Shown in pieces: positions 1 through 25,098 of a DNA stretch of 25,098 nt. The notes beneath the pieces are model-generated. The model worked only from the letters and a program-made list of their open reading frames with translations. It ran no database searches and was not told the origin of the DNA. Made by a program: the position numbers and the translations under genes. Source of the DNA: a virus; IMG/VR virus record IMGVR_UViG_3300025570_001526, positions 1 to 25,098 of that record. One strand, 5' to 3'. Position 1 is the first letter of the stretch. Every line of letters begins with the position of its first letter.

Positions 1-1203
1 AATATGCGCAATCATACGTTGCCATATGGTTTATTACCAAAGACACTCAGTTTTGCAAAGAATAGTGGATATGGAATTAACCTTTGCTCTACTCTTAAAA
101 ACAAAGAGGTTATAGATAAAGATGACCTTGATAAATTTGCAAATTCTCAAGAGCTAAGAGCTGGAGGAAAAAAAATTGAGCTTCGTGATTATCAGTATGA
201 CGCATTTATTCATGGAATTACTGAGGGCAGATCATTAATTGTTTCACCAACTGGTTCTGGTAAGAGTTTAATAATTTACATGTATATCAAATGGTATATA
301 GAAAATCATGATGATAATGTTTTAATCATTGTTCCAACTACTTCATTGGTTGAACAAATGAGTAAAGACTTTGCCGATTATAGTTCACACGATGATTCGT
401 TTGATGCTGATCTTGAAATACATAAAATATATTCCGGCAAAGAAAAAGAAAACTTTGATGCTCGTGTTATTATTTCAACATGGCAAAGCGCTATAAACCT
501 TCGTCCTGAATGGTTCGAACAATATGGAATGATCATTGGAGACGAAGCGCACCTCTTTAAAGCCAAGAGTCTTAATAAGATTATGGGGATGTTAGTTAAT
601 GCGCCTTATAGAATTGGTACTACTGGAACTCTTGATGGAAGTCTTTGTAATGAATTGGTTTTAATTGGAAACTTTGGTCCAACGTTTAACGTAATTTCAA
701 CTAAGAAATTAATTGATTCAAAGACACTTGCTGATCTTGAGATTAAATGTATTGTATGCAACCATGATGATGCTCTAAAGAAAGCAGTTGTTAAAATGGA
801 TTATCAAAGTGAAATTGCAACAATTGTTGAACACCCAAACCGAAATAAATTTATATCAAAGTTAGCGCTTGATCAAAATGGTAATACACTTGTTCTTTTT
901 AATCTCGTTAAGAAACATGGTAAACCTTTGTTTAAAATGATTCAAGACAGCGCAGATGATAAAGATAATATCTTTTATGTTAGTGGAGAAGTAAAAGCGG
1001 ATGACAGAGAAAACATTCGAAGTATTGTTGATACTAATCCCTTAACAACTACAATGAAATTTGGTTTAAAAAAGATCACTGTCGGGCAAAACGTAAAAGT
1101 TCCATTAACAGATGGATCTGAAAAATTAGCGTGTGAAATAACAATTGATGATGATATATTAGAAAATTGGGTAATGACTCGATGGCGTGAAGCGGGAATA
1201 TAA
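1..1203 (+). CDS. uvsW: UvsW-like DNA/RNA helicase, N-terminal fragment (5' partial, split gene)
   Basis: Superfamily 2 helicase of the T4 UvsW type, which unwinds recombination intermediates and R-loops and helps switch replication from origin- to recombination-dependent mode. Counting from the Met at position 4, Walker A SPTGSGKS is at residues 81-88, the DEAH box at 180-183 and GTTGT near 208. The frame is open to the first base, and the first visible residues match the region of T4 UvsW after its small N-terminal domain, so this Met is probably internal and the true start lies upstream. UvsW similarity ends near residue 345 (SIVDTNP). The frame then reads about 54 residues of unrelated sequence, including ENWVMTRWREAGI, before a stop at 1201. 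The missing helicase motifs V and VI are encoded from 1353 in another frame. Identity is firm; how the two halves are expressed is unknown. Confidence 0.9.
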   Translation, partial: NMRNHTLPYGLLPKTLSFAKNSGYGINLCSTLKNKEVIDKDDLDKFANSQELRAGGKKIELRDYQYDAFIHGITEGRSLIVSPTGSGKSLIIYMYIKWYIENHDDNVLIIVPTTSLVEQMSKDFADYSSHDDSFDADLEIHKIYSGKEKENFDARVIISTWQSAINLRPEWFEQYGMIIGDEAHLFKAKSLNKIMGMLVNAPYRIGTTGTLDGSLCNELVLIGNFGPTFNVISTKKLIDSKTLADLEIKCIVCNHDDALKKAVVKMDYQSEIATIVEHPNRNKFISKLALDQNGNTLVLFNLVKKHGKPLFKMIQDSADDKDNIFYVSGEVKADDRENIRSIVDTNPLTTTMKFGLKKITVGQNVKVPLTDGSEKLACEITIDDDILENWVMTRWREAGI

Positions 1204-1360
1204 AAGTAAAAAGACTTGGATGTTCTGGTGTACCTGGGAGGGTTATAATAAGAAGGACATAGATTTTAATAATGAAGGAATGGATGATTTAGATAAGATA
1301 AGTTATTCAGAATATAGAAAAAGATTAATATTAAAAAAAGAAAACAATTTATATGAAACC
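1041..1360 (+). other. Insertion of about 320 nt interrupting uvsW
   Basis: Conserved UvsW sequence leaves frame 1 at about 1040 and resumes in frame 3 at about 1360. Aligning the proline codons on either side (ccc at 1039, cca at 1359) gives 320 extra nucleotides, which is not a multiple of 3, so this cannot be an intact intein. The insert looks protein-coding: frame 1 gives about 50 residues from an ATG at 1054 to the stop at 1201, and frame 2 continues with KSKKTWMFWCTWEGYNKKDI up to a stop near 1361. The two pieces read like one small unknown protein broken by a frameshift near the A-rich run at 1202-1212. I found no convincing group I intron core or matching internal guide sequence. The exact ends are uncertain by a few bases. 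Confidence 0.7.
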
Positions 1361-1688
1361 AGATAAAATAACAAGCACAAGCGGAGCAATTATTGTGGCA
1401 AGTACTGGTGTGTTTTCAACAGGAATTAATATTAAGAACTTACATAATATTATATTCGCTAGTCCAACAAAATCTCAAATTAAAGTTCTTCAAAGTATTG
1501 GTCGTGGATTGAGAAAATCAGATGATGGAAGAAAAACTATTGTATTTGATATTTCTGATAACCTTAGTTGGCGTAAAAAGAAAAACTATACGTTTAAACA
1601 TGCTCAGGAAAGAATCCGTATATATAATAAAGAGGGATTCAAATACAAGATCTTCGAAATACCATTAAGTTTAGATGAAATACAATAA
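1353..1688 (+). CDS. uvsW: UvsW-like helicase, C-terminal fragment
   Basis: Continues the RecA-like second helicase domain. Motif V (ASTGVFSTGINIKNLHNIIF) and motif VI (LQSIGRGLRKSD) are present, both needed for ATP-coupled unwinding. The start is uncertain. The frame is open only from 1335, and the ATG at 1353 is the only nearby candidate; no good Shine-Dalgarno precedes it. If translated independently, the 111-residue piece could associate with the N-terminal fragment, as split helicases and nucleases sometimes do. If the insertion is removed from the RNA instead, the ATG is not used. It overlaps the next gene by 14 nt. Family identity is clear; whether it is a separate polypeptide or the remnant of a disrupted gene is open. 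Confidence 0.8.
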   Translation: MKPDKITSTSGAIIVASTGVFSTGINIKNLHNIIFASPTKSQIKVLQSIGRGLRKSDDGRKTIVFDISDNLSWRKKKNYTFKHAQERIRIYNKEGFKYKIFEIPLSLDEIQ

Positions 1689-5964: not shown

Positions 5965-8322
5965 ATGATTAAAGAACCACAAGTTATTAAACCAAAGCCT
6001 GACCGCACTATTATTAATATAGACGCTCAGAAACAGCTTGCCAAATTATTAGCCACTGAAGATATTCAAGTGACTGTCGGTAATTTTAAGACAGCCTATT
6101 TTGATGTTAAAAATCGAGTTCTTGGATTGCCTGCGTGGAATACCGATACTAAAGAAGTTTCCGACCTGCTTGTTGGCCATGAAGTTGGTCATGCTCTATT
6201 TACTCCTGAGGATGGAATTACTAAATTTAAAGAGCGTTATCCAAAACTCCCTTTTGATATTGCCAACATTGTTGAAGATATTAGGATTGAGAAGATGATC
6301 CAATTTAAATATCCTGGCCTTATTAAATCCTTTAATGATGGCTATTCTTATTTTAAAGAAAACGACCTTTTTGAAATTAAAGATAAGGATGTGAATGCTT
6401 TAGGATTCATTGATCGTATTAACCTTAAAGGTAAATTAAGAGATCTTATTGATGTCCAATTCTCAGATGAGGAAACCGTATTATTTGATAAGGTTAACCG
6501 TTGTAAAACCTATGATGATGTATTGGACGTTATTCAAGAGCTTGCTGATTTTATTGAGAAAGAGGAAGAGAAAAACCCCAAAGAAAAGGCAAAACAGCCT
6601 TCTGATGACGGCGAGGATAACCAAATGTCTAACGATTCAGAATCAGGTGACGATGATTTAGAATCAGAAGATGATGATGGCGATTCCTCTTCAAAATCCT
6701 CAGAAGATAAAAACTCATCTCCAGATACTAATACATCACATGGTGGAAACTCTGGAGGACAGCTTCACAGTAAAGAAGAAGAAACCTCAGAAGCGTTTAA
6801 ATCAGAAACTCAAGATTCATTGGATAAACACCTTGAGGATCTTGGTGAAATGGCATCCAATGAAACTATCCTAAATAAATTTCCTGAAAAAAATGTGGGA
6901 AATTTAGTACACTCCCTCGATGACGTTCGCACGGCGCGTAAAGCATGCATTCATTATGATACTATTATGAATGATCCAATGGTTCACGAAAAGTGGGCCT
7001 TGTTTAAGAATTCTACAAAGAAAAATGTAAATATCCTTTGTAAAGAATTTGAAAGGCGAAAAGCTGCGCATTCATATTCAAGATCTACACAAGCTAGAAC
7101 CGGAGCCATCAATGTAAACAAATTGCATAGTTACCAATATGATGATCAGATTTTTAAATCGGTAACCAACCTTGCTGATTCTAAAAACCACGGAATGAAT
7201 ATTTTTATTGACAACTCAGGAAGCATGGGTAATTGCATCAGCGATGTTATTAAGCAGACTATTCAATTGGTTATGTTTTGTAAGACGGTTGATATTCCGT
7301 TCTCTGTTTATAGTTTCACCAGTAAATCCGGTAGAGCCTTTTTGGAAAATGGTAAGTATATTAGAAAATACGAAAATAAAAACGACTTCTTTAGAAATAA
7401 TTTCCAATACGGAAATAACCTTGATATCTTTACTACCGAGGTTTGTGAGTTAATGAATTCCTCTTTAAAGAAATCTAAATATGAAACTGCTTTAAAAGAA
7501 TTATATATTCAAAGCGGTGCAATATTTTCAGATGGAGATAAATATGATAAGCTATCCATTCAAATAAATCAACCGTATGGCACTAGAACATATCAGACTA
7601 ACCTATATTTGGAACATAACTGTATGAATTCTGAATTAGAAGAGATGGGCGGCACTCCTCTTATTGAAACTTTAATCATGGCTCACGGCCTTATCAAAAA
7701 TTTCAGGAAAACGCATAATGTTGAAAAAATGACAACTGTATTTTTAACAGATGGCGAAGGCCAAACTCCTCACTCTCATTCTACCGAGCCAAAAGTAGAG
7801 GATGAAGAAACTCAAATGTATTCAAATTCTAAAGACCCTTGGGGAAATTACCGATATATTAAAATAGGAAAAGATACTGTTGATATTAGTCGCCAAAACC
7901 CGAATGCATATTCTGACGTTGTAAAAAGTATTAAGAAGGACACCGGCTCTAAGATGATTGGATTCTTCTTAACTTCAAGTCCGGCAAATGGCAGAAATCA
8001 TTCATTCGGCGCATTGGCTCATATTAAAAATCTACGTAAGTGGGAATATATTGACAAGTGTAAAAATGAAGCTAAGAAACTAAAAAGCAACTGTTATGCT
8101 ATTGAAAATGGATATAACTATGATACCTATTTCGTTATTGATAACCTTAAATCCTTAAAAATAAATGATGAAGAAGAATTTCAAGTGCCAGACACCGTTG
8201 ATACTGAAGATCTTAACAAAGCCGCGAATAGAAGTAAATTGGCAACCTCCTTTAAGAAGTTTAATACCACTAAACGACAGAGTCGAATTTTCCTTAATAA
8301 ATTCATTGACACGGTGATTTAA
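5965..8322 (+). CDS. CobT-like VWA protein with N-terminal HEXXH metallopeptidase motif
   Basis: A 785-residue partner for the AAA+ ATPase encoded next. An N-terminal domain carries LLVGHEVGHALF, a zinc-binding HEXXH at 72-76. About 27 residues later comes NIVEDIRIE (101-109), where a glutamate could be the third ligand, as in gluzincins. Residues about 197-285 are a very acidic, Ser/Asp/Glu-rich linker like that of CobT, BchD and ChlD. The C-terminal VWA domain has a complete MIDAS: D416-x-S418-x-S420, T564 and D596. Related proteins in T4-like phages are called CobT or peptidase. In bacteria CobT pairs with CobS and CobN to insert cobalt, but no CobN is present and HEXXH suggests proteolysis or protein remodelling. 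MoxR-type ATPases often act with VWA proteins as chaperones. Domain calls are strong; function is inferred. Confidence 0.85.
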   Translation: MIKEPQVIKPKPDRTIINIDAQKQLAKLLATEDIQVTVGNFKTAYFDVKNRVLGLPAWNTDTKEVSDLLVGHEVGHALFTPEDGITKFKERYPKLPFDIANIVEDIRIEKMIQFKYPGLIKSFNDGYSYFKENDLFEIKDKDVNALGFIDRINLKGKLRDLIDVQFSDEETVLFDKVNRCKTYDDVLDVIQELADFIEKEEEKNPKEKAKQPSDDGEDNQMSNDSESGDDDLESEDDDGDSSSKSSEDKNSSPDTNTSHGGNSGGQLHSKEEETSEAFKSETQDSLDKHLEDLGEMASNETILNKFPEKNVGNLVHSLDDVRTARKACIHYDTIMNDPMVHEKWALFKNSTKKNVNILCKEFERRKAAHSYSRSTQARTGAINVNKLHSYQYDDQIFKSVTNLADSKNHGMNIFIDNSGSMGNCISDVIKQTIQLVMFCKTVDIPFSVYSFTSKSGRAFLENGKYIRKYENKNDFFRNNFQYGNNLDIFTTEVCELMNSSLKKSKYETALKELYIQSGAIFSDGDKYDKLSIQINQPYGTRTYQTNLYLEHNCMNSELEEMGGTPLIETLIMAHGLIKNFRKTHNVEKMTTVFLTDGEGQTPHSHSTEPKVEDEETQMYSNSKDPWGNYRYIKIGKDTVDISRQNPNAYSDVVKSIKKDTGSKMIGFFLTSSPANGRNHSFGALAHIKNLRKWEYIDKCKNEAKKLKSNCYAIENGYNYDTYFVIDNLKSLKINDEEEFQVPDTVDTEDLNKAANRSKLATSFKKFNTTKRQSRIFLNKFIDTVI

Positions 8323-8366
8323 TAGGAAAAAATGTGAAAATAAATGCATTTTCTATCATTATTCTA

Positions 8367-8395
8367 TTTACATTCACTAAGATTTAGTTTATAAT
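8367..8395 (+). promoter_or_regulatory. Sigma70-type promoter of the CobS-like gene
   Basis: TTTACA at 8367-8372, a 17-nt spacer and TATAAT at 8390-8395. The leader is about 55 nt and starts with the same CTACAAGGA as the preceding gene's leader, then becomes A/C-rich (TTACACCATCAAATTAC) before the ATG. Confidence 0.85.
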
Positions 8396-8456
8396 ATATC
8401 TACAAGGAAGGGAACGGATTCGCTAAGTACCTCCCATTACACCATCAAATTACATT

Positions 8457-9677
8457 ATGAAAAAAGACACCACAAATACGCAGAAGCCTGAGTCCAACTA
8501 TGACACTGTAATGTCAGAATTAGAACAAGCAGTCTCAACATATCCAATCGTTAAAACGAAGGATATTTACACACACGCTAGAGCCCACGGTTATAGTTAC
8601 AATAGTGCCAAAGAAACCTTTATGCACTCCGGCCCAAAGCGAGGTGAATGGGACATGCGCAATGTCTGCCTAACTAAGCCTACGCAAAAGAAAGCTTCGG
8701 TGGCTCAACCTCAGCAAAGTAACTCTGCTGATGAGAATTTCAAATTTGCCACTTCGGTCCAATCGGTTTCCAATGACGATGTTTATATCCCAGAGGTAGA
8801 TCCTAACTTTATTTCATGGGGCGACTTCTCAAAGATTAAGAAGATTATCGACTCAAAACAATTTTTCCCTCTGTACATTAGTGGAATGTCAGGAAACGGG
8901 AAAACAATGATGGTTGAACAAGCCTGCGCAAAGGCAAAGCGCGAATATGTTCGAGTACAGATATCACCAGAAACTGATGAAGACGATCTGATTGGTGGTT
9001 TTCGTCTCATCAATGGTGAGACTGTATTCCAAAAAGGACCGGTACTAAAAGCCATGGAAGCTGGATGTATACTATTGATCGACGAAATGGACCGAGGTTC
9101 AAATAAGATCATGTGTCTCCAAGGCGTCTTGGAAGGTAAGCCGGTGATGGTAAAGAAAACGGGTGGCGTAGTTCACCCCGCTCCTGGGTTCAACGTTATT
9201 GCAACGGCGAATACTAAGGGGCGGGGTGCCGATGATGGACGATACTCTGCCGCACAAATCATTGATGATGCTTTCGTAGAACGATTCGTAGCAAGTATCG
9301 ATCAGCCCTTCCCCGCATATAATGTCGAACTAAAAATTATTAAGAAGCATATGACTTCATGCGATGTCAGAGGGCACGATGATTTTGCCGATAAACTCGT
9401 CAGCTGGGGCGCAGTTATCCGTAAGACTTACGAAAGCGAGGGCGTTGACGAATTGATCTCAACTCGCCGACTATGCCACATTGTTAAAGCTCTCTCAATC
9501 TTTAATAATCGCCTAGAAGCAATTAAGATGTGTATCACTCGATTCGAAGATGAGACTAAGGAAGCTTTCCTCGATCTCTATACCAAGATTGATACAAATC
9601 AAATTGACAGAGATATGAATTTCACGACTGACGAAAACTCAACTGACGAAAACTCTAGTGATACTAGCCAACACTAA
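8457..9677 (+). CDS. cobS: CobS-like MoxR-family AAA+ ATPase
   Basis: AAA+ ATPase of the MoxR/CobS type (406 residues), a gene well known from marine T4-like phages. Walker A GMSGNGKT is at 143-150 and Walker B LLIDE at 206-210. The sensor-1 region is VIATANTKGRG, and DDAFVERF provides the likely arginine finger. Residues 1-110 are a separate segment with a short helical module (SELEQAVSTYPIVKTKDIYT) resembling a small helix-turn-helix, followed by a Gln/Ser-rich linker. It lies just after the CobT-like VWA gene and shares its leader element, so the two probably form one complex in which ATP hydrolysis remodels or delivers a substrate. A cobaltochelatase role would need CobN, not seen here. 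G/C at third codon positions appears higher than in the neighbours. The C-terminus repeats TDENST/TDENSS. Confidence 0.9.
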   Translation: MKKDTTNTQKPESNYDTVMSELEQAVSTYPIVKTKDIYTHARAHGYSYNSAKETFMHSGPKRGEWDMRNVCLTKPTQKKASVAQPQQSNSADENFKFATSVQSVSNDDVYIPEVDPNFISWGDFSKIKKIIDSKQFFPLYISGMSGNGKTMMVEQACAKAKREYVRVQISPETDEDDLIGGFRLINGETVFQKGPVLKAMEAGCILLIDEMDRGSNKIMCLQGVLEGKPVMVKKTGGVVHPAPGFNVIATANTKGRGADDGRYSAAQIIDDAFVERFVASIDQPFPAYNVELKIIKKHMTSCDVRGHDDFADKLVSWGAVIRKTYESEGVDELISTRRLCHIVKALSIFNNRLEAIKMCITRFEDETKEAFLDLYTKIDTNQIDRDMNFTTDENSTDENSSDTSQH

Positions 9678-17099: not shown

Positions 17100-17291
17100 A
17101 TGAACCAACTAAACAGAAACCTGACAAACGTTATTAACGAATTACAACAAGACTATTTAAAGTTTGATGATACCGTAAGAACCATCGAAGTTCTTAATGC
17201 GATTAACAATTACTTTCACACGACAGAGGAAACTCCTTTGTCTAATAAAAGCAGAGACATTCTAAAAGAAATTAAAATATATGGAAAATAA
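17100..17291 (+). CDS. Small hypothetical protein downstream of DNA polymerase
   Basis: A 63-residue, mostly helical protein of unknown function (INELQQDYLKFDDTVRTIEV, ending SRDILKEIKIYGK). Its leader is A/C-rich with no Shine-Dalgarno. The 3' end overlaps the start of the MazG-like gene by 11 nt in another frame, which supports it as a real, co-translated gene. No motif is recognised. Confidence 0.6.
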   Translation: MNQLNRNLTNVINELQQDYLKFDDTVRTIEVLNAINNYFHTTEETPLSNKSRDILKEIKIYGK

Positions 17292-17811
17292 TAAAACAGT
17301 AGAAGACGTGGTAAAACTAATTCCAGAAACACTTGATGATTGGGTAACGCTTGTTCCTAAAAATGACTCTCTAACATGGCAAGCATCATCTACCGATTGG
17401 CCAAGCGATATTGATAACATGCATAATAAGTATGGCGTTCATTGCGCGCTTAAAAAGTTAGATAGTAAAGACCTAAGAGAATTTCTAAACTTTCGTTTAG
17501 ACTTCCTAGAAGAAGAACTTACTGAAACAAAAAATGCAGTTGGTAAACTACATTGTGATGACGTTGATTGCGAAGAAGTGGTTGATGGTTTAATTGATCT
17601 TTGCGTTGTCGCTATTGGAACGTTAAATGCGTTTGGAGTTGACGAACATAAAGCGTGGGAAGCAGTTCATAACGCTAATATGAATAAGGAAGTCGGCGTT
17701 AAAGAAGGTCGAGACAATCCACTAGGTCTTCCAGATTTAGTAAAGCCTAAAGGGTGGGTCGCGCCAGATCATTCTGATAATCACGGGTTTCTTCCTAAAT
17801 TAAACGAATAA
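17281..17811 (+). CDS. MazG/HisE-like nucleotide pyrophosphohydrolase
   Basis: A 176-residue protein with the all-alpha NTP pyrophosphohydrolase pattern. Helix LNFRLDFLEEELTETKNAV carries the EExxE-type metal site (77-82), and EEVVDGLIDLCVVAIGTLNA carries the second ExxD site (99-106). Enzymes of this superfamily hydrolyse NTPs or dNTPs to the monophosphate, or phosphoribosyl-ATP. In phages, MazG-like proteins are proposed to adjust nucleotide or alarmone pools. The N-terminal 60 residues, with two Trp-containing segments, are an extension not found in the minimal domain. The start ATG lies inside the end of the previous gene. Substrate cannot be read from the sequence. Confidence 0.8.
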   Translation: MENNKTVEDVVKLIPETLDDWVTLVPKNDSLTWQASSTDWPSDIDNMHNKYGVHCALKKLDSKDLREFLNFRLDFLEEELTETKNAVGKLHCDDVDCEEVVDGLIDLCVVAIGTLNAFGVDEHKAWEAVHNANMNKEVGVKEGRDNPLGLPDLVKPKGWVAPDHSDNHGFLPKLNE

Positions 17812-19724: not shown

Positions 19725-20423
19725 ATGAACATTAAATCCGTAAGAGACACCTTAGCAAATCTCCATAAAAATAAAGAATATGTCATAGTTAATAAACAAT
19801 TAACTGTTGAAATTATTGGAGCATCTTTCATAGCAAATACTGATTCTATATTTGGTTTGGCCAATGAAGATTATATTGATCGAGAATTAATGTGGTATAG
19901 AAGTATGTCTCGTAATGTAAATGATATTAAAGGTAAGGTTCCAAAGATCTGGGAAATTGTTTCATCGCCAAAAGGAGAGATAAATTCAAATTATGGATAT
20001 CTAATAAATCACAAAGATAACTATTACCAATACAAGAATGTATTAGAAACTCTTAAGAAGGATCCTAACTCGCGCAGAGCAATAATGATTTATACAAATC
20101 CTAAAATGCATACTCAATTTAAAAGGAAAGGTATGACAGATTTTGTTTGTACAAATACTGTTCAATATGTTATTCGTAAAAACAAATTGTCTGCAATTGT
20201 CCAAATGAGATCAAACGATGCTTGGGCCGGTTATAGAAACGATTACGCTTGGCAGAAATATGTTCTTAACAAGTTAGCAAAAGACCTAAATTGCAAAGAA
20301 GGTAACATTCATTGGAATGCTGGTAGCTTACACGTATATGAAAATCAATTCTACCTACTAGACCATTATTTAAAAACAGGAGAACACGAGATTACTAAAA
20401 AACAATATAATAACAACCTCTAA
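19725..20423 (+). CDS. 42: Deoxycytidylate 5-hydroxymethyltransferase (gp42-like)
   Basis: Thymidylate synthase superfamily enzyme, 232 residues (T4 gp42: 246). Catalytic Cys is C142 in DFVCTNTVQY. The following segment QMRSNDAWAGYRNDYAWQKYV carries Asp at 173, where thymidylate synthases have the dUMP-binding Asn. The C142-D173 spacing equals that of Cys148 and Asp179 in T4 gp42, and the Asp is the known determinant for dCMP. The reaction uses methylene-tetrahydrofolate to make 5-hydroxymethyl-dCMP, which is then phosphorylated and put into DNA in place of dC. This implies base-modified DNA unless the enzyme has drifted. It leads an island with a glycosyltransferase and nucleotide-activating enzymes. 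A plain thymidylate synthase is less likely given D173. Confidence 0.85.
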   Translation: MNIKSVRDTLANLHKNKEYVIVNKQLTVEIIGASFIANTDSIFGLANEDYIDRELMWYRSMSRNVNDIKGKVPKIWEIVSSPKGEINSNYGYLINHKDNYYQYKNVLETLKKDPNSRRAIMIYTNPKMHTQFKRKGMTDFVCTNTVQYVIRKNKLSAIVQMRSNDAWAGYRNDYAWQKYVLNKLAKDLNCKEGNIHWNAGSLHVYENQFYLLDHYLKTGEHEITKKQYNNNL

Positions 20424-20439
20424 AAACCCACCACCCAAT

Positions 20440-21189
20440 ATGTACAGTATTAAAAAACTAGGATATGACGATTGGAATGACGCGCTTGATGCTTTCTTAG
20501 AATATAAAACCAGAGATGTGGAAAAAAACAATTTATCATTTGATGAATGGTATTCTTTTAAAACAAGAATCAAAAAAATTAATGAAAAAATTAAAAATGG
20601 GGAAGCATCTTCTAATGTTAATAAACATATAAAAAAAGATATCAAAAAACATAGCGATGACTCTGAAAATTTAACATTAGCAGAAAATGAAATTTTGGAA
20701 ATGCTGAATAACTTAAATTTAGATGTAAGCATTTCGCCTAGATATAAAGAAGAATCATACTCTGAAAGAATATGCAGAGAAGCGGAAGAGCTAGCTCGCC
20801 GCGCCCATATTGGTCAAACTCGCCATAATGGAAACCCTTACATTCATCATATTGAAGATGTTGTTAACATAATTAAATCTAATAGTAATAGCAACACCGC
20901 TGAAGCAATTATTGTTGCATGGTTACACGACGTTATTTCAACCACTTCTTACACAAGTGAATTTTTATTAGAGCAATCTTGGGTAACTAAAAGAATGCTT
21001 AATGCTATTGAAGAAATTGAAATTGGTTATTTTGAAACATATCAACAGTATGTTAACAGATTAAAAGAAAATAATTTAGCTTGGGTCGTTAAGTTAGCAA
21101 AGCTTATGTCTCTTATGGATAATAATCCGACACAAGATGAGCAATTTGAGATTGAAACATTTTGCGATTATCTTGAAGATGAGCCGTAA
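20440..21189 (+). CDS. SpoT/MESH1-like HD protein, probably catalytically altered
   Basis: A 249-residue protein. The C-terminal 145 residues are close to the (p)ppGpp hydrolase HD domain of SpoT/MESH1: AHIGQTRHNGNPYIHHIEDV, then AIIVAWLHDVI and VKLAKLMSLMDN. Metal ligands H137, H163 and D164 are kept. The catalytic Glu-Asp pair that normally follows (HDVxEDT) reads HDVISTT, and the last metal ligand of the usual VKLAD motif is K221. The protein may therefore bind a nucleotide without hydrolysing it, or have a different reaction. Residues 1-100 are a lysine-rich, helical extension of unknown role. The leader is A/C-rich (CCCACCACCCAAT). It lies between dCMP hydroxymethylase and an Nmad1-like gene. 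Confidence 0.75.
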   Translation: MYSIKKLGYDDWNDALDAFLEYKTRDVEKNNLSFDEWYSFKTRIKKINEKIKNGEASSNVNKHIKKDIKKHSDDSENLTLAENEILEMLNNLNLDVSISPRYKEESYSERICREAEELARRAHIGQTRHNGNPYIHHIEDVVNIIKSNSNSNTAEAIIVAWLHDVISTTSYTSEFLLEQSWVTKRMLNAIEEIEIGYFETYQQYVNRLKENNLAWVVKLAKLMSLMDNNPTQDEQFEIETFCDYLEDEP

Positions 21190-21207
21190 AATAACTAAAT
21201 AAAAAGA

Positions 21208-21236
21208 TTTACATTCCCTATAAAATGTGATATAAT
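21208..21236 (+). promoter_or_regulatory. Sigma70-type promoter of the Nmad1-like gene (leaderless)
   Basis: TTTACA at 21208-21213, a 17-nt spacer and TATAAT at 21231-21236. Seven nucleotides separate the -10 box from the ATG at 21244. It probably drives the genes up to the window end. Confidence 0.87.
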
Positions 21237-21243
21237 TAATCAT

Positions 21244-21591
21244 ATGAATAAGGAAGCTAAAGAAAGTATTAAGGTATTACGAGAGTGTGCCGAATTACAA
21301 ACTGCTAAATCAAGAGATTATCAAAATCCTAACAGCCGAATTAAACAAGCTGATTATTATCCACGAGGCATCGCATCTATCTTAGATATTATTTACGCCA
21401 AAACTCTTAGAATGTATTCGGTTCTAGAAGCTATGGAATCTGATACTGGATATGAGCCAAACTTTGAATCTCTTGAAGATTCTGGTAAAGATCTTATTAA
21501 CTATGCATCATTCCTAGTAGCTTATATGAGACATGGTATAGATGGCCAAGATGTTAATAAAGATTTTTTAAATCGAAACGAAAACAAATAG
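21244..21591 (+). CDS. DUF1599/Nmad1-like protein (nucleotide modification associated)
   Basis: A 115-residue all-helical protein. AKSRDYQNPNSRIKQADYYP, then GIASILDIIYAKTLRMYSVL, then ESLEDSGKDLINYASFLVAY follow the DUF1599 pattern (DYGN-like, iKxxR and DsxxDliNY). The family is called Nucleotide modification associated domain 1 because it co-occurs with DNA base modification genes in phages. It is related in appearance to MazG/HisE-type helical pyrophosphohydrolases, with Glu/Asp-rich helices suggesting metal-dependent nucleotide binding. Its reaction is unknown. Here it sits between dCMP hydroxymethylase and a glycosyltransferase, as expected. The glycosyltransferase follows after 7 nt. 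Confidence 0.75.
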   Translation: MNKEAKESIKVLRECAELQTAKSRDYQNPNSRIKQADYYPRGIASILDIIYAKTLRMYSVLEAMESDTGYEPNFESLEDSGKDLINYASFLVAYMRHGIDGQDVNKDFLNRNENK

Positions 21592-21598
21592 ATATATT

Positions 21599-22876
21599 AT
21601 GAGAATTGGTATCGGTAAGATCGGTAAGTCTGTATTATTCAATAGTAAAAATTGGGGCGCCGTTGGCGGTGACAATGAAGCTCCTATTTTATATGAACAC
21701 CTAATAACACAAAACCCTGAGCATACTTTTGTTATGCTTGGTGCTAGTGACTTTGACAGGTTATCTATTGCCGAGCAAGAACGAATTAATGTTCATGGTA
21801 ATTTCATATATGCTTTCTCTGGGTTTTCCGAATGGCGAAAAAATCAATGGGATAGATCTAAAGCTCAGCATCCTTCAAATGATAGGCAAGAGTTTATGGA
21901 AAATATTATTATTCCAAATCCAAAATTTGAAATTGATGCTGGTGTTTTTATGTGCGGTCAAGTTTCAACTACTAATGTTGGGGGTTGGGCTCGTAAACAA
22001 ACTGATCATACTCAATTAGCAAAGCCACTTGATGTTCAACGAAAGTACGCAGGACCAACAATTCATTATCTTAATAAGTATAAAGAAGTACCATGGCTTA
22101 TGTTATTAAACGATCCTCGCCTTTATCCTGGGAAGATGAGAGATTTAATGAATCCTCCTAGGAAGATATACTCTCAATATAATAGAAAATGTTTGCATCT
22201 TAATAGTCTTGAATATGATAGCTCTGTTAGGGAACAGACTGAAATAGATCAACTATATAAAGGTATTGAAACCACATTTCTAATTGGTAAAGAGAAAGGT
22301 AAATCAATTCAAGAAGCACCAACCACATTAGATAGTTTCTTTGGCGAAGCTGAAGAAAAGACAACTGAAAAAGATATTAACTTTATGATTGTTTGTAATG
22401 AAGGCAAACCATCGCGCTATCCTGATTTGAAAAAATATATTCTTGAGCATGTTCAAGATGTAAATATTTACGGCCAATGGAATCCTAAAACGGTTGGTGA
22501 TGATCATAGGTTTAAAGGACCTAAAAAGTTCAACGACCTAATGCAGATGTTGCCAAGAGTTAAATACACATTTTGTATCCCAATTAAAAAAGGATGGGTT
22601 ACCGCAAAGTTTTGGGAAATGGCTCATTATGGAATTATACCATTCTTACACCCTACATACGATGATCAGAAACATTTAGACGTTCCTGACTTTATTAGAG
22701 TAAAAGATTCAAAAGATCTTTTTAATAAAATTAAATTCCTTGAGGAAAACCCTAAGGCTTATGCTGAACTTCGCGATCGGTTAGATGAAATGCTCAAAGA
22801 AGAGTATTACGACGGATCTTATATGAACAACTTATTAATAAACGGACTATATGAAATTAAAATCGATTGTATTTGA
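21599..22876 (+). CDS. GT-B glycosyltransferase, probable DNA hydroxymethylcytosine glycosyltransferase
   Basis: A 425-residue protein. The C-terminal half follows T4 beta-glucosyltransferase in order: a strand and Arg-containing loop (NFMIVCNEGKPSRYPDLKKY, 261-280), helix and strand VNIYGQW, then LMQMLPRVKYTFCIPI, then AKFWEMAHYGIIPFLH (336-351, compare RVWETMASDAVMLI in T4), then DFIRVKDSKDLFNKIKFLEE and a final helix. The N-terminal half is a second Rossmann-like domain with HYLNKYKEVPWLMLLNDPRL. The linker between domains contains TLDSFFGE (243-250), like the clamp-binding peptides at the ends of gp43 (SLEDFFG) and gp55 (PLTDFF). T4 alpha-glucosyltransferase is known to bind gp45. The sugar cannot be read from sequence; a surface-polysaccharide glycosyltransferase is the main alternative. 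The HAD gene start lies within its 3' end. Confidence 0.75.
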   Translation: MRIGIGKIGKSVLFNSKNWGAVGGDNEAPILYEHLITQNPEHTFVMLGASDFDRLSIAEQERINVHGNFIYAFSGFSEWRKNQWDRSKAQHPSNDRQEFMENIIIPNPKFEIDAGVFMCGQVSTTNVGGWARKQTDHTQLAKPLDVQRKYAGPTIHYLNKYKEVPWLMLLNDPRLYPGKMRDLMNPPRKIYSQYNRKCLHLNSLEYDSSVREQTEIDQLYKGIETTFLIGKEKGKSIQEAPTTLDSFFGEAEEKTTEKDINFMIVCNEGKPSRYPDLKKYILEHVQDVNIYGQWNPKTVGDDHRFKGPKKFNDLMQMLPRVKYTFCIPIKKGWVTAKFWEMAHYGIIPFLHPTYDDQKHLDVPDFIRVKDSKDLFNKIKFLEENPKAYAELRDRLDEMLKEEYYDGSYMNNLLINGLYEIKIDCI

Positions 22877-23213
22877 TTTAGATGACACTATTTGTTATCC
22901 TAATCATGACCAAAGCGACAGCTATAAAAAGTATGGTTTGGCTAAACCAAATCAATCTATTATTGACAAGATGCAAGCTATGAAAAAAGATGGCTGGCAT
23001 ATTATTATTTCTTCTGCTCGACGAATGGCAACTCATAACGGTAACGTTAGCGCGATCGTTGCAGACATTGGAAAAATAACTATTGATTGGTTAGACCAAC
23101 ATGAAGTACCTTACGATGAATTACATTTTGGAAAACCTTATGCCAATACATACTATGTAGATGATAAAGCTATGACGCTAGATCATTTTGAAAAATGGAA
23201 CTATAATGAATAA
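22851..23213 (+). CDS. HAD-family phosphatase (sugar-phosphate type)
   Basis: A 120-residue HAD hydrolase with no cap domain. Motif I is FDLDDT (nucleophile D9, acid D11), motif II an S in IIISSARR, and motif III/IV KPYANTYYVDDKAM. Small HADs of this type appear in polysaccharide and nucleotide-sugar pathways, removing a phosphate from a sugar phosphate. Its start overlaps the end of the glycosyltransferase by 26 nt and its end overlaps the nucleotidyltransferase-kinase by 8 nt, a tightly coupled trio. Substrate unknown; supplying or recycling the activated donor for the glycosyltransferase is the natural inference. Confidence 0.85.
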   Translation: MKLKSIVFDLDDTICYPNHDQSDSYKKYGLAKPNQSIIDKMQAMKKDGWHIIISSARRMATHNGNVSAIVADIGKITIDWLDQHEVPYDELHFGKPYANTYYVDDKAMTLDHFEKWNYNE

Positions 23214-24705
23214 AATTAATTTAATAATACCTGCAGCTGGAGAAGCCACTAGGCTAAAACCACTGTCTAATAATACTTCTAAAATTATGGTTAGGGTTAA
23301 TGGTAAACCCTGCCTTGATTATATTATTGAACAAGCTAATAAACTCGGAGATGTTCAAGAGATTGTTATTGTTGATGGAAAGTTTGATGATGTTCGTGAA
23401 TATTGTTCTCTTAAACATCCAGAGGTTACTTTTATTAAACAAGAAAACTTAAATGGCCCTCGTCCAGCTATTGCTTTAGGTTTTACTAAAATTGAAAACG
23501 ATCTCCCAACTGTCGTATGGTTAGGCGATGCAATTATTCTTGAAGATAATTTACCACTTGGCGAAGATTTTCTTTTATGTAAACAGGTTGACAACCATTC
23601 ATCATGGTGTATGTGGGATGGCTCTGATTATTATAATAAGCCAGATCAAACCGTTAATGATAGCGTAGCTCTTGTTGGTTTGTATTCTTTTTCAGATGGC
23701 GAACAAGCAAAGTATTCGTTTCAATCTGTTAACTCATATGATATTTCAGACGCTTTAGAAAACTATACAGATAAACATATAAAACGTTTTCAAAGAGTTC
23801 TTACTGATGAATGGTATGATATTGGAACTCTTAGTGTATATCATGAAACTTGTGGAAAACTATTGAGGCTAAAAAGCCGAGCTTTTAATAACATATCATT
23901 TAACGACGAACTTGGAACCGTTACTAAATCTCCAGACTATCATGACAAGCATTCTGTTGATACACTTAACTCAGAGCGGTTATGGTATAAAAATATAACA
24001 GCCGAACAGTCATTGCTGGTTCCTAGAGTAATTCCGCATGAGAATGATTTAATAATGTCTTATGAGTCAGGCTCATTATTATCAGACTTAATGTTATATG
24101 AAAACTTATCAGAATCTAATTGGAGTTTTATTATTGATAAACTGTTTCGTATTAAATTAAAATACTTTTCAGAACCACTTAACAGAGTTTTAGAAGATGA
24201 TTTTAGTATGCTCTCTAAAAGGATCTGGATAGATAAAACAGAAGAACGTTTAGATCAAACCACCTTTGACAAAAAAGAACGCGAAACTTTAAATGATATT
24301 GCAATAAAAATACATCGCAATACAATTCCTGTTCAAACTCACCATGGTGATTTACATTTTGGAAATGTTCTTTACAACCATTATACAAACCAATTTAAAT
24401 TAATTGATCCAAGAGGTAATTACGGAGGAGTAATCTCAACGCTTGGTGATAACTATTATGATTGGTGTAAATTGGCTCATGATCTTTATCATGGCTATTC
24501 GGCAATTGTTGCAAATGTTAAACAAAACAAAATTGTAAAGAAAGTTTTTATTGAGAAGTTAAAAGAATATAAACTTCCCATAAATGATATAGTAGACGGC
24601 GGCTTGTTGTTATTAGCAACATGCATACCATTACACTATGATGACTCTGATAGACAAAAAAGAATATCAAAATACGTAAGTAAAACATTAAAACAAAATA
24701 AATGA
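23206..24705 (+). CDS. Bifunctional sugar nucleotidyltransferase and APH/choline-kinase-like kinase
   Basis: A 499-residue fusion. Residues 1-235 are a nucleotidyltransferase like RfbA/GlmU-N: IIPAAGEATRLKPLS (the GxGTRL loop in the form GEATRL), then IMVRVNGKPCLDYII and VVWLGDAI for the metal site. Residues 255-499 are a kinase of the aminoglycoside/choline kinase fold, with catalytic loop HHGDLHFGN (D382) and metal-binding LIDPRG (D401). Kinase plus nucleotidyltransferase on one chain can turn a free sugar or alcohol into its NDP/CDP-activated form, as LicA and LicC do for choline as separate proteins. I chose the ATG at 23206 because it gives the usual start MNKINLIIPAAG and overlaps the HAD stop by 8 nt; 23188 would add only six residues. 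The substrate is unknown. Confidence 0.85.
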   Translation: MNKINLIIPAAGEATRLKPLSNNTSKIMVRVNGKPCLDYIIEQANKLGDVQEIVIVDGKFDDVREYCSLKHPEVTFIKQENLNGPRPAIALGFTKIENDLPTVVWLGDAIILEDNLPLGEDFLLCKQVDNHSSWCMWDGSDYYNKPDQTVNDSVALVGLYSFSDGEQAKYSFQSVNSYDISDALENYTDKHIKRFQRVLTDEWYDIGTLSVYHETCGKLLRLKSRAFNNISFNDELGTVTKSPDYHDKHSVDTLNSERLWYKNITAEQSLLVPRVIPHENDLIMSYESGSLLSDLMLYENLSESNWSFIIDKLFRIKLKYFSEPLNRVLEDDFSMLSKRIWIDKTEERLDQTTFDKKERETLNDIAIKIHRNTIPVQTHHGDLHFGNVLYNHYTNQFKLIDPRGNYGGVISTLGDNYYDWCKLAHDLYHGYSAIVANVKQNKIVKKVFIEKLKEYKLPINDIVDGGLLLLATCIPLHYDDSDRQKRISKYVSKTLKQNK

Positions 24706-25098
24706 AAAAAGAAGACATAACATATGGTTCAATCGTACCTCTTATTGGTGGCGAAAGTTTAGCGATACAAAACGTATTAAATGATAAACACCCTGAGTGG
24801 GTAATATCTTATAGAGCGTTTGAAGAAAACGATTCTCATTATATGAATCATATTAGAAACCAAGGGTATGAAGGAGATTATGTATTTCTTGATGAAGACA
24901 CTAGTTATGCGCCTAAGCAGGTTGACGTAGTTAATACGGTTTGTCCTTGTGCAGGCCTTTCATCTTTATCAACAACATCTTCTGCAGAATCTGCAACAAA
25001 CGATTGGTTATATCATACATCTGAATACATTCTTGAGAAAGTTAAACCAAAAGTATTCTGGGGTGAGAACGCGCCACGTCTTGCTATGTCAACTGGAG
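24702..25098 (+). CDS. C5-cytosine DNA methyltransferase-like protein (3' partial)
   Basis: Starts at an ATGA overlap with the previous stop (ATG 24702, TGA 24703-24705) and runs out of the window after 132 codons. PLIGGESLAIQ resembles the SAM-binding motif I of C5 methyltransferases. VVNTVCPCAGLSSLS holds the catalytic PC in the form of motif IV (PPCQGFS). VKPKVFWGENAPRL matches the ENV of motif VI. The CPCAGLS variant is known in phage C5-methyltransferase-like proteins. The target-recognition part lies beyond the window. In a genome whose cytosines may carry hydroxymethyl groups, its role (methylation, or part of the modification) is an open question. Confidence 0.78.
   Translation, partial: MKKEDITYGSIVPLIGGESLAIQNVLNDKHPEWVISYRAFEENDSHYMNHIRNQGYEGDYVFLDEDTSYAPKQVDVVNTVCPCAGLSSLSTTSSAESATNDWLYHTSEYILEKVKPKVFWGENAPRLAMSTG

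Follow-up and report, generated by a model that had tools for sequence, protein, structure and literature searches.

A Probable Cytosine-Decoration Module with Phage-Encoded Donor Activation in a T4-like Phage Fragment

Gene Content of the Island

We analyzed a 25,098-b fragment of a T4-like phage (IMG/VR virus record IMGVR_UViG_3300025570_001526; hereafter, the window), whose last part, positions 19725-25098, holds an island of seven open reading frames (ORFs). In order, these encode a dCMP hydroxymethylase (gp42), an HD protein, an Nmad1-like protein, a glycosyltransferase (GT), a HAD-family phosphatase, a nucleotidyltransferase-kinase fusion, and the start of a C5-cytosine-methyltransferase-like protein (C5MT) that is truncated by the window end. 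The island is probably a cytosine-decoration module with phage-encoded donor activation. A first-pass annotation, made from the letters of the window, had proposed a cytosine-modification island of this kind, and this is still the best reading, since gp42 accompanies the GT at 33 of 37 informative loci and DNA GT families occupy the same slot in relatives. The contrast that it drew with T4, which takes UDP-glucose from its host, also holds. All seven ORFs were recovered at about the positions given there, as follows:

19725..20423, + strand: dCMP hydroxymethylase of the T4 gp42 type, 232 amino acids (aa), with C142 and D173 and a family profile match
20440..21189, + strand: SpoT-like HD phosphohydrolase (TIGR00691, 1.6e-8; phrog_990, 2e-23)
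21244..21591, + strand: Nmad1/DUF1599-like protein (PF07659 in 14 of 28 aligned relatives)
21599..22876, + strand: GT-B glycosyltransferase, T4 beta-GT-like, 425 aa (predicted model, profile and fold match)
22851..23213, + strand: HAD-family phosphatase, EcbF/BcbF-like, 120 aa (TIGR01689; DxDxT)
23206..24705, + strand: fusion of a nucleotidyltransferase and an APH-type kinase, 499 aa with the ATG 23206 start or 505 aa with the TTG 23188 start
24702..25098, + strand: C5-cytosine-methyltransferase-like protein, first 132 aa, cut by the window end

As had been noted before, the last four genes overlap one another. The GT and HAD genes share 26 b, the HAD and fusion genes share 8 b with the ATG 23206 start (26 b with the TTG 23188 start), and the fusion and C5MT genes share 4 b, ATGA. 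The same neighbors recur in IMG/VR loci around GTs of only 26-67% identity, indicating that the arrangement is more than chance.

Conservation of the Module in Relatives

Related loci were collected from IMG/VR as overlapping sets, of which the GT profile gave 74 loci, the single GT 38 and the fusion 8. Note that these are overlapping metagenomic contigs, and all counts refer to distinct sequences only. For the association counts, 52 distinct full-length GTs from loci L009-L095 were used, and gp42 was scored as present when it lay on either side of the GT. Of the 37 distinct GTs whose upstream flank covered 5 kb or more, 33 had gp42 in the locus, and of the 43 whose downstream flank covered 4.5 kb or more, 40 had a C5MT (misses: L053, L078 and L079). 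Where both flanks were present (n = 32), 31 GTs were accompanied by a nucleotidyltransferase-kinase or HAD-kinase fusion, the miss being L081, and 29 by a HAD. The expectation that gp42 is always found with this operon was thus borne out at 33 loci and failed at four, namely L053, L056, L079 and L080.

The module is also present in cultured phages. Pseudoalteromonas phage XG4 has the order gp42-HAD-fusion-GT-second GT-C5MT, and in Enterococcus phages 9183 and Planchet the gene for an Asp-type thymidylate synthase precedes those for dUTPase, HAD, fusion and GT; no C5MT match was found in the two Enterococcus phages. The GT-HAD-fusion trio with a gp42-type enzyme is therefore shared by unrelated cultured phages. 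A tblastn search with the GT matched 6 records among 50,697 from phages, and a pattern-based scan of bacterial and archaeal genomes of 84,980 species, made with one peptide pattern, returned 60 stretches of which 1 was confirmed as a relative. The contig bearing this sole relative (28,041 b, the same length as IMG/VR contig 2778260989_000002 of locus L032) is probably viral.

Hydroxymethylase, GT and Putative Donor-Activation Proteins

The window gp42 matched Thymidylat_synt at 9.7e-22, and its family profile found T4 gp42 at 8.6e-102. D173 and C142 correspond to Asp179 and Cys148 of T4 gp42 and are invariant in a 26-row alignment, in agreement with the earlier call of a dCMP hydroxymethylase with the diagnostic Asp.

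The likeness of the GT to T4 beta-GT (BGT), which had likewise been proposed, was recovered by three approaches. The GT model (predicted local distance difference test, pLDDT, 90.9) had T4 BGT as its top Foldseek match (6.9e-8). In VIA-align, T4 BGT reached Z 21.2 over 315 aligned residues with a root-mean-square deviation of 3.9 Å, and the best non-BGT row had Z 18.4. T4 BGT was also first when the GT profile was compared with PDB chains, at a weak E of 0.039; the single GT protein had no Pfam family above cut-off. In the profile alignment, R273, K337 and E340 of the GT align with R195, R269 and E272 of BGT, which bind the donor in that enzyme, and they are kept in 58, 57 and 56 of 58 distinct GTs, respectively.

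The HAD protein matched the EcbF-BcbF family TIGR01689 at 8.6e-28, which is under the curated cut-off, and DxDxT is present in all 55 distinct family members. The fusion matched NTP_transferase (PF00483) at 3e-14, and the profile of its N-terminal half found sugar-1-phosphate nucleotidyltransferases (7o2n, 2.5e-19) and LicC (1jyk, 3.3e-15). The APH match of the window fusion alone is weak (0.24); of 39 distinct full-length members, 38 have HGD in the C-terminal half, and 35 of these have the strict form of the motif that was searched for. Both proteins thus have the identities first assigned to them. The fusion is homologous to TH2_063 of phage Thanatos-2, with 22.5% identity over residues 6-437 (E 1.8e-10 when 8 sequences were compared and 5e-6 against the phage collection).

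The gp42-C5MT Interval as an Exchangeable Slot

The C5MT profile matched at least 572 viral stretches, and the best 80 were kept. Among these, gp42 lay upstream of 49 of the 54 distinct C5MTs for which 6 kb or more of upstream sequence was present, and the gp42-C5MT gap was 1.1-6.0 kb over all 58 measured cases. The five exceptions comprise L081 and L135, where gp42 is downstream, and L056, L080 and L136, where there is none. Between gp42 and C5MT, 57 distinct loci showed 41 gene orders, a number that includes differences by small ORFs. Note that slot ORFs were picked greedily from a single strand, with a minimum of 240 b and no overlap allowed, so that small genes were missed, and that family names come from one scanned representative per cluster. 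The occupants included:

dCMP deaminase-like protein: 36 loci
NAD-dependent sugar epimerase: 11 loci
AGT-family GT of the T4 alpha-GT type (PF11440, 3e-32): 10 loci
small protein of the UDG superfamily (PF03167, 5.7e-7): 10 loci, e.g., L172:4977-5348
TET-associated GT (PF20691, 5e-19): 7 loci
inositol-3-phosphate synthase (TIGR03450, 9.9e-64 for L134): 5 loci, L134:2368-3660, L117, L139, L154 and L157
UDP-glucose dehydrogenase-like protein: 3 loci
UDP-galactopyranose mutase (PF03275, 2.9e-53): 2 loci, L122:7245-8246 and L153

Because established DNA glucosyltransferase families fill the same address, the GT cassette of the window is most simply DNA-directed. Galactofuranose on DNA is possible for the loci with UDP-galactopyranose mutase, as is an inositol-linked cytosine for those with inositol-3-phosphate synthase. 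The latter loci encode three more proteins without a family match, one of which is HAD-like by eye.

Exchange was also seen between close relatives. L009 has a GT 100% and a fusion 98% identical to those of the window. The GTs of L009 and of L011, L012 and L016 are 92% identical, whereas their activation cassettes differ and are partly non-homologous: L009 carries HAD and the fusion, and the other three carry a HAD-kinase fusion and an RfaE/TagD-type nucleotidyltransferase together with a 305-aa protein that matched no family (in L014, which represents this group, EcbF-BcbF matched at 1.7e-10 and RfaE domain II at 1.2e-21). On a GT tree of 47 rows, some branches of which are long, the cassette label, scored by ORF size with a HAD ORF of more than 850 b taken as HAD-kinase, changes 6 times, and at least 4 of the changes are forced by well-supported branches. 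That two unrelated nucleotidyltransferases stand beside a kinase and a HAD argues for kinase, phosphatase and nucleotidyltransferase being one activation pathway.

If our reading of the island and its slot is right, many T4-like phages vary their cytosine chemistry by swapping donor-plus-transferase cartridges at one address, which we liken to the exchange of O-antigen genes in bacteria. Such swapping might be part of how phages keep ahead of modification-dependent restriction, and the slot would be a source of new DNA glycosyltransferases and nucleotide-sugar enzymes.

C5MT with an Altered Cofactor Site

The truncated C5MT of the window matched the C5-methyltransferase family at 1.5e-4, and its full-length relative at L009:11104-12318 (404 aa) at 8.8e-17. 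The model of the latter (pLDDT 91.1) has the C5-methyltransferase fold, with Z 25.8 to M.HaeIII and Z 25.5 to M.HhaI, and the catalytic Cys, the Glu-Asn pair and both Arg of RxR are kept in all 115 distinct C5MTs. The first-pass assignment as C5-methyltransferase-like therefore stands for fold and catalytic residues; it mentioned neither the exchange of cassettes nor the site for S-adenosylmethionine (SAM), which is altered. In HhaI numbering, motif-I Phe18 is replaced by Val or Ile in 111 of the 115, Gly20 by Leu in 113, the SAM-ribose residue Glu40 by Ser or Thr in 114 (the sole Glu is that of Bacillus phage G), and Asn304 by Gln in all 115. The SAM-adenine aromatic residue Trp41 is still Tyr, Phe or Trp in 110. 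The alignments to HhaI and 3g7u agree on the change from Glu40 to Ser36, and the Asn304 position is also given by the HaeIII alignment; the residue-59 column (HhaI D60) varies and was left out of the evidence. The changed SAM site also occurs in the C5MTs of the cultured phage XG4 and cyanophage S-TIM5, and C5MT relatives lie beside Asp-type thymidylate synthases in S-TIM5 and, more distantly, in phage G. By tblastn, S-TIM5 matched neither the GT nor the fusion.

From these residues we infer that the cofactor of the C5MT is changed or missing and that its substrates are cytosines in hydroxymethylated genomes. In vitro, C5-methyltransferases devoid of SAM are able to attach hydroxymethyl groups or take them off, so that removal or exchange of a substituent is a concrete guess. 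A bolder scenario, which we consider unlikely but worth stating, is that in a widespread phage family the C5MT is no longer a normal SAM user: its Cys would attack C6 of the phage's own hydroxymethylated cytosines and strip or exchange the C5 substituent, or install one from another cofactor. It would work with interchangeable gp42-side cartridges (for pentose or heptose, galactofuranose, uronate or inositol), so that the lineage would re-code its DNA surface chemistry by exchange. It is also quite possible, although on balance we doubt it, that the C5MT is an ordinary SAM-dependent methyltransferase making 5-methylcytosine to guard residual deoxycytidine (dC), which would be compatible with a cytosine-decoration role of the other genes. 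The preserved fold and catalytic residues and the aromatic residue at the Trp41 position suit an ordinary enzyme; the replacement of Glu40, Phe18, Gly20 and Asn304 in nearly all members does not, nor does the company of gp42, that is, of genomes in which unmodified dC should be rare.

The use of a C5-methyltransferase fold in phage DNA hypermodification has a parallel in the carboxymethylcytosine system CmoX/CmoA/CmoY, described in passages of PMC12783734. There, the CmoX equivalents of Phe18 and Glu40 hold the cofactor adenine and ribose, and an Arg at the Asn304 position (Arg350) contacts the carboxymethyl group of carboxy-SAM (Cx-SAM). Unlike CmoX as presented there, none of the 115 C5MTs has the SPPC motif IV and all have Gln in place of Arg350, ruling out a CmoX carboxymethyltransferase. 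CmoA was found in 0 of 13 records, 10 of which are possible fragments, with a control that matched 9 of 14 genomes and exceeded the cut-off in 1. A Tet_JBP dioxygenase, as in the TET route, was likewise found in 0 of 13 records, with a control that was silent everywhere.

Neither a C5MT of this kind nor the gp42-C5MT slot was found described in the titles and abstract openings of the papers that searches of the open-licence PMC literature listed. The C5MT family, of at least 572 viral stretches, poses the biochemical question of how a C5-methyltransferase with a changed SAM site acts on hydroxymethylated DNA. Cultured phages offer entry points, with XG4 and S-TIM5 suited to work on the C5MT, and Enterococcus phage 9183 to work on the GT and the donor genes.

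Comparison with Known Systems

The first-pass annotation had suggested that the activated group could be a new one. This part was not supported, since homologous fusions of RB69 and Thanatos have already been tied to arabinose or pentose on cytosine (in passages of PMC6024577 and PMC12838424). RB69 ORF53_52c was proposed to serve UDP-arabinose synthesis (PMC6024577, in part). For Thanatos-1, the corresponding portions of PMC12838424 report a deoxypentose on cytosine by liquid chromatography-mass spectrometry, nearly abolished propagation when the fusion gene TH1_060 was inactivated, and UDP-xylose pyrophosphorylase activity of TH1_063 in vitro. As in the window, a homologous fusion, a HAD and a dCMP-hydroxymethylase-like gene are clustered in Thanatos-2, and the donor is made by the phage. 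Because homologous donor enzymes flank the gp42-like gene of Thanatos, whose cytosine carries a pentose, self-made donors are of an already known kind, and the window is a variant of it.

The likeness has its bounds. In Thanatos-2 (L006), fusion, HAD and dCMP hydroxymethylase are side by side; in the window, HAD adjoins the fusion, and gp42 lies three genes upstream of the GT, the neighbor of HAD. Thanatos-2 also differs in gene order, has no tblastn match to the window GT and has no C5MT. Its hydroxymethylase keeps the Asp but not the RSND/GxxND context, whereas the window gp42 is much closer to the T4 type. The two fusions are only 22.5% identical, a comparison made with Thanatos-2 alone.

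Like T4, the window encodes gp42 and a transferase of the BGT fold within the gp43-gp42-uvsX region. Unlike T4, it has its own donor-activation enzymes, a C5MT and a swappable slot. The MetaGPA study (PMC8670742, in part) ties Asp-type thymidylate synthase, PRA-PH and deaminase to modified environmental phage DNA. Its islands for carbamoylated hydroxymethylcytosine resemble the window in having an Asp-type thymidylate synthase, a PRA-PH and a tailoring transferase, and dCMP deaminase occurs in relatives of the window; the tailoring genes differ, being a sugar-donor cassette and a GT in the window and a carbamoyltransferase in those islands. Bacillus phage G (gp301-gp319, about 15 kb; L097) also has an Asp-type thymidylate synthase, two alpha-GT-like genes, a nucleotidyltransferase, a HAD, an APH-like kinase and a C5MT relative. 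In phage G, however, these are separate genes in another order, and the C5MT keeps the SAM Glu.

Proposed Mechanism and Alternative Explanations

For the cytosine-decoration module we infer the following reactions, together with a protective function, from families, folds and conserved residues. The gp42 enzyme would convert dCMP to 5-hydroxymethyl-dCMP, which would be incorporated as 5-hydroxymethylcytosine (hmC), as its family and active site suggest. The kinase half of the fusion would phosphorylate a host-derived phospho-sugar or phospho-alcohol at the activation position, the HAD phosphatase would strip the original distal phosphate, and the nucleotidyltransferase half would make a nucleoside diphosphate-linked donor. 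Heptose activation follows the same kinase-phosphatase-nucleotidyltransferase logic. The BGT-like GT, judging from its fold and conserved donor-site residues, would then move the group onto the hydroxymethyl of hmC in DNA, and the C5MT-like enzyme may afterwards act on these cytosines too, through covalent catalysis and probably by a reaction other than ordinary SAM methylation. The donor and transferase genes that lie between gp42 and C5MT are exchanged like cartridges among relatives, which would give different decorations.

Several points weigh against this proposal. The proposal is drawn from sequence and predicted folds. The sequence likeness of the GT to BGT is weak (E 0.039), and the GT-B fold is common to many other enzymes (Z 18.4 and lower). 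At L053, L056, L079 and L080, gp42 was absent from the whole record searched (26-155 kb, possibly fragments). In this search, which covered 24 records chosen to include the misses, gp42 was found in 12; of the other 12, 9 are under 35 kb, and the L056, L079 and L080 records are 155, 49 and 54 kb. Members of the fusion family are also present in S-SRM01, S-SKS1 and Stenotrophomonas phage DLP_6, none of which has a gp42 match, so that the fusion alone is not diagnostic, and in the cyanophages S-SRM01 and S-SKS1 its relatives sit within surface-glycan-like clusters of multiple GTs. The search for an SIS-type sugar-phosphate isomerase gave no match in the 12 metagenomic virus records covered (possible fragments) or in Thanatos-2; among 8 named records, S-SRM01 gave the one match and the other 7 none. 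The donor substrate, for which our best guess is pentose-5-phosphate (as proposed for arabinose) or heptose-7-phosphate, comes from pathway logic. Finally, passages of PMC12838424 place the Thanatos sugar directly on cytosine through an O-glycosidic bond, not via the hydroxymethyl as in T4; this precedent thus leaves the linkage in the window unfixed, and it may differ.

ThyX was considered as a stand-in for gp42 and rejected, being present in the L056 record but not in those of L053, L079 and L080, and also in the gp42-bearing L047 record. In the 155-kb L056 record, which has no gp42 or thymidylate synthase match, the ThyX gene (L056:11866-12552; PF02511, 1.6e-35) adjoins C5MT, and the cluster includes a radical-SAM-like ORF at 6258-7160, named by eye.

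The observations on S-SRM01 and S-SKS1 bear on another explanation, in which GT, HAD and fusion make a lipopolysaccharide or capsule sugar for superinfection exclusion and lie near gp42 by chance. We consider it improbable. Part of a review of jumbo phages (PMC7824862) does read similar cyanophage clusters as outer polysaccharide genes, the best named family of the HAD is a capsule biosynthesis phosphatase, and L080 has ORFs resembling an aminotransferase and an epimerase by eye. Nevertheless, the GT tracks gp42 (33/37) and C5MT (40/43), its nearest fold is T4 BGT, its slot is filled by DNA GT families in relatives, and it had no tblastn match in S-SRM01 or S-SKS1. Moreover, family searches of the seven proteins named a single GT and no polysaccharide polymerase or flippase. 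The pattern that the first-pass annotation had raised against itself, relatives consistently found with capsule genes in phages lacking gp42, was accordingly for the most part not seen for the GT and was seen in part for the fusion. That T4 BGT, a UDP-glucose user, is the nearest fold would also suit a GT that adds plain glucose from host UDP-glucose, as in T4, with HAD and fusion serving repair or cofactor salvage. This seems very improbable to us, given that 31 of 32 well-flanked distinct GTs are accompanied by a kinase-bearing fusion and 29 by a HAD, which plain host glucose would not need, and that the activation set exists in two versions with unrelated nucleotidyltransferases.

Other Genes of the Island and the Window

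Two further genes lie between gp42 and the GT. The Nmad1-like protein of the window matched PF07659 only at E 0.02, short of the 0.01 threshold; its earlier naming as Nmad1/DUF1599 is upheld through the 14 of 28 aligned relatives that match PF07659 (best, 4.7e-8), and the gene is close to gp42 in many relatives. The HD protein, in addition to its TIGR00691 (RelA/SpoT family) match, which is far under the cut-off of that family, gave a weak HD_4 match (6.4e-5, under the Pfam cut-off). Of the 57 slot loci, 3 contain its gene, each of them a close relative of the window; the gene is thus not a conserved part of the island in which it had been included. Its membership in the module is doubtful, and it may be an alarmone or nucleotide hydrolase unconnected with DNA decoration.

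Outside the island, the window encodes T4-type replication genes in the order gp55, gp47, gp46, gp45, gp44, RegA and gp43, named by similarity to annotated phages or relatives and by eye. A further gene is syntenic after gp43 in relatives:

17281..17811, + strand: MazG/PRA-PH-like nucleotide pyrophosphohydrolase (PF01503, 1.7e-7)

This protein is a possible partner in the dNTP pool, and in sections of PMC8670742 PF01503 accompanies thymidylate synthase and carbamoyltransferase domains on modified contigs. Likeness to the dCTP pyrophosphatase of Thanatos-2, which would have pointed to a role as dCTPase, was not found by BLASTP.

At window positions 1-1688, a UvsW-like helicase is interrupted, its conserved motifs resuming near 1390 after about 330 non-helicase bases; the name comes from likeness to an ORF of XG4 that is unbroken (L003 13387-14841). 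The interruption could be an intron or intein remnant; it has no Rfam match, and no RNA family was found in the window at the Rfam gathering threshold. Between gp46 and gp45 (5965-9677), the window encodes a VWA-like protein of 785 aa along with a MoxR-like AAA ATPase, both named by eye.

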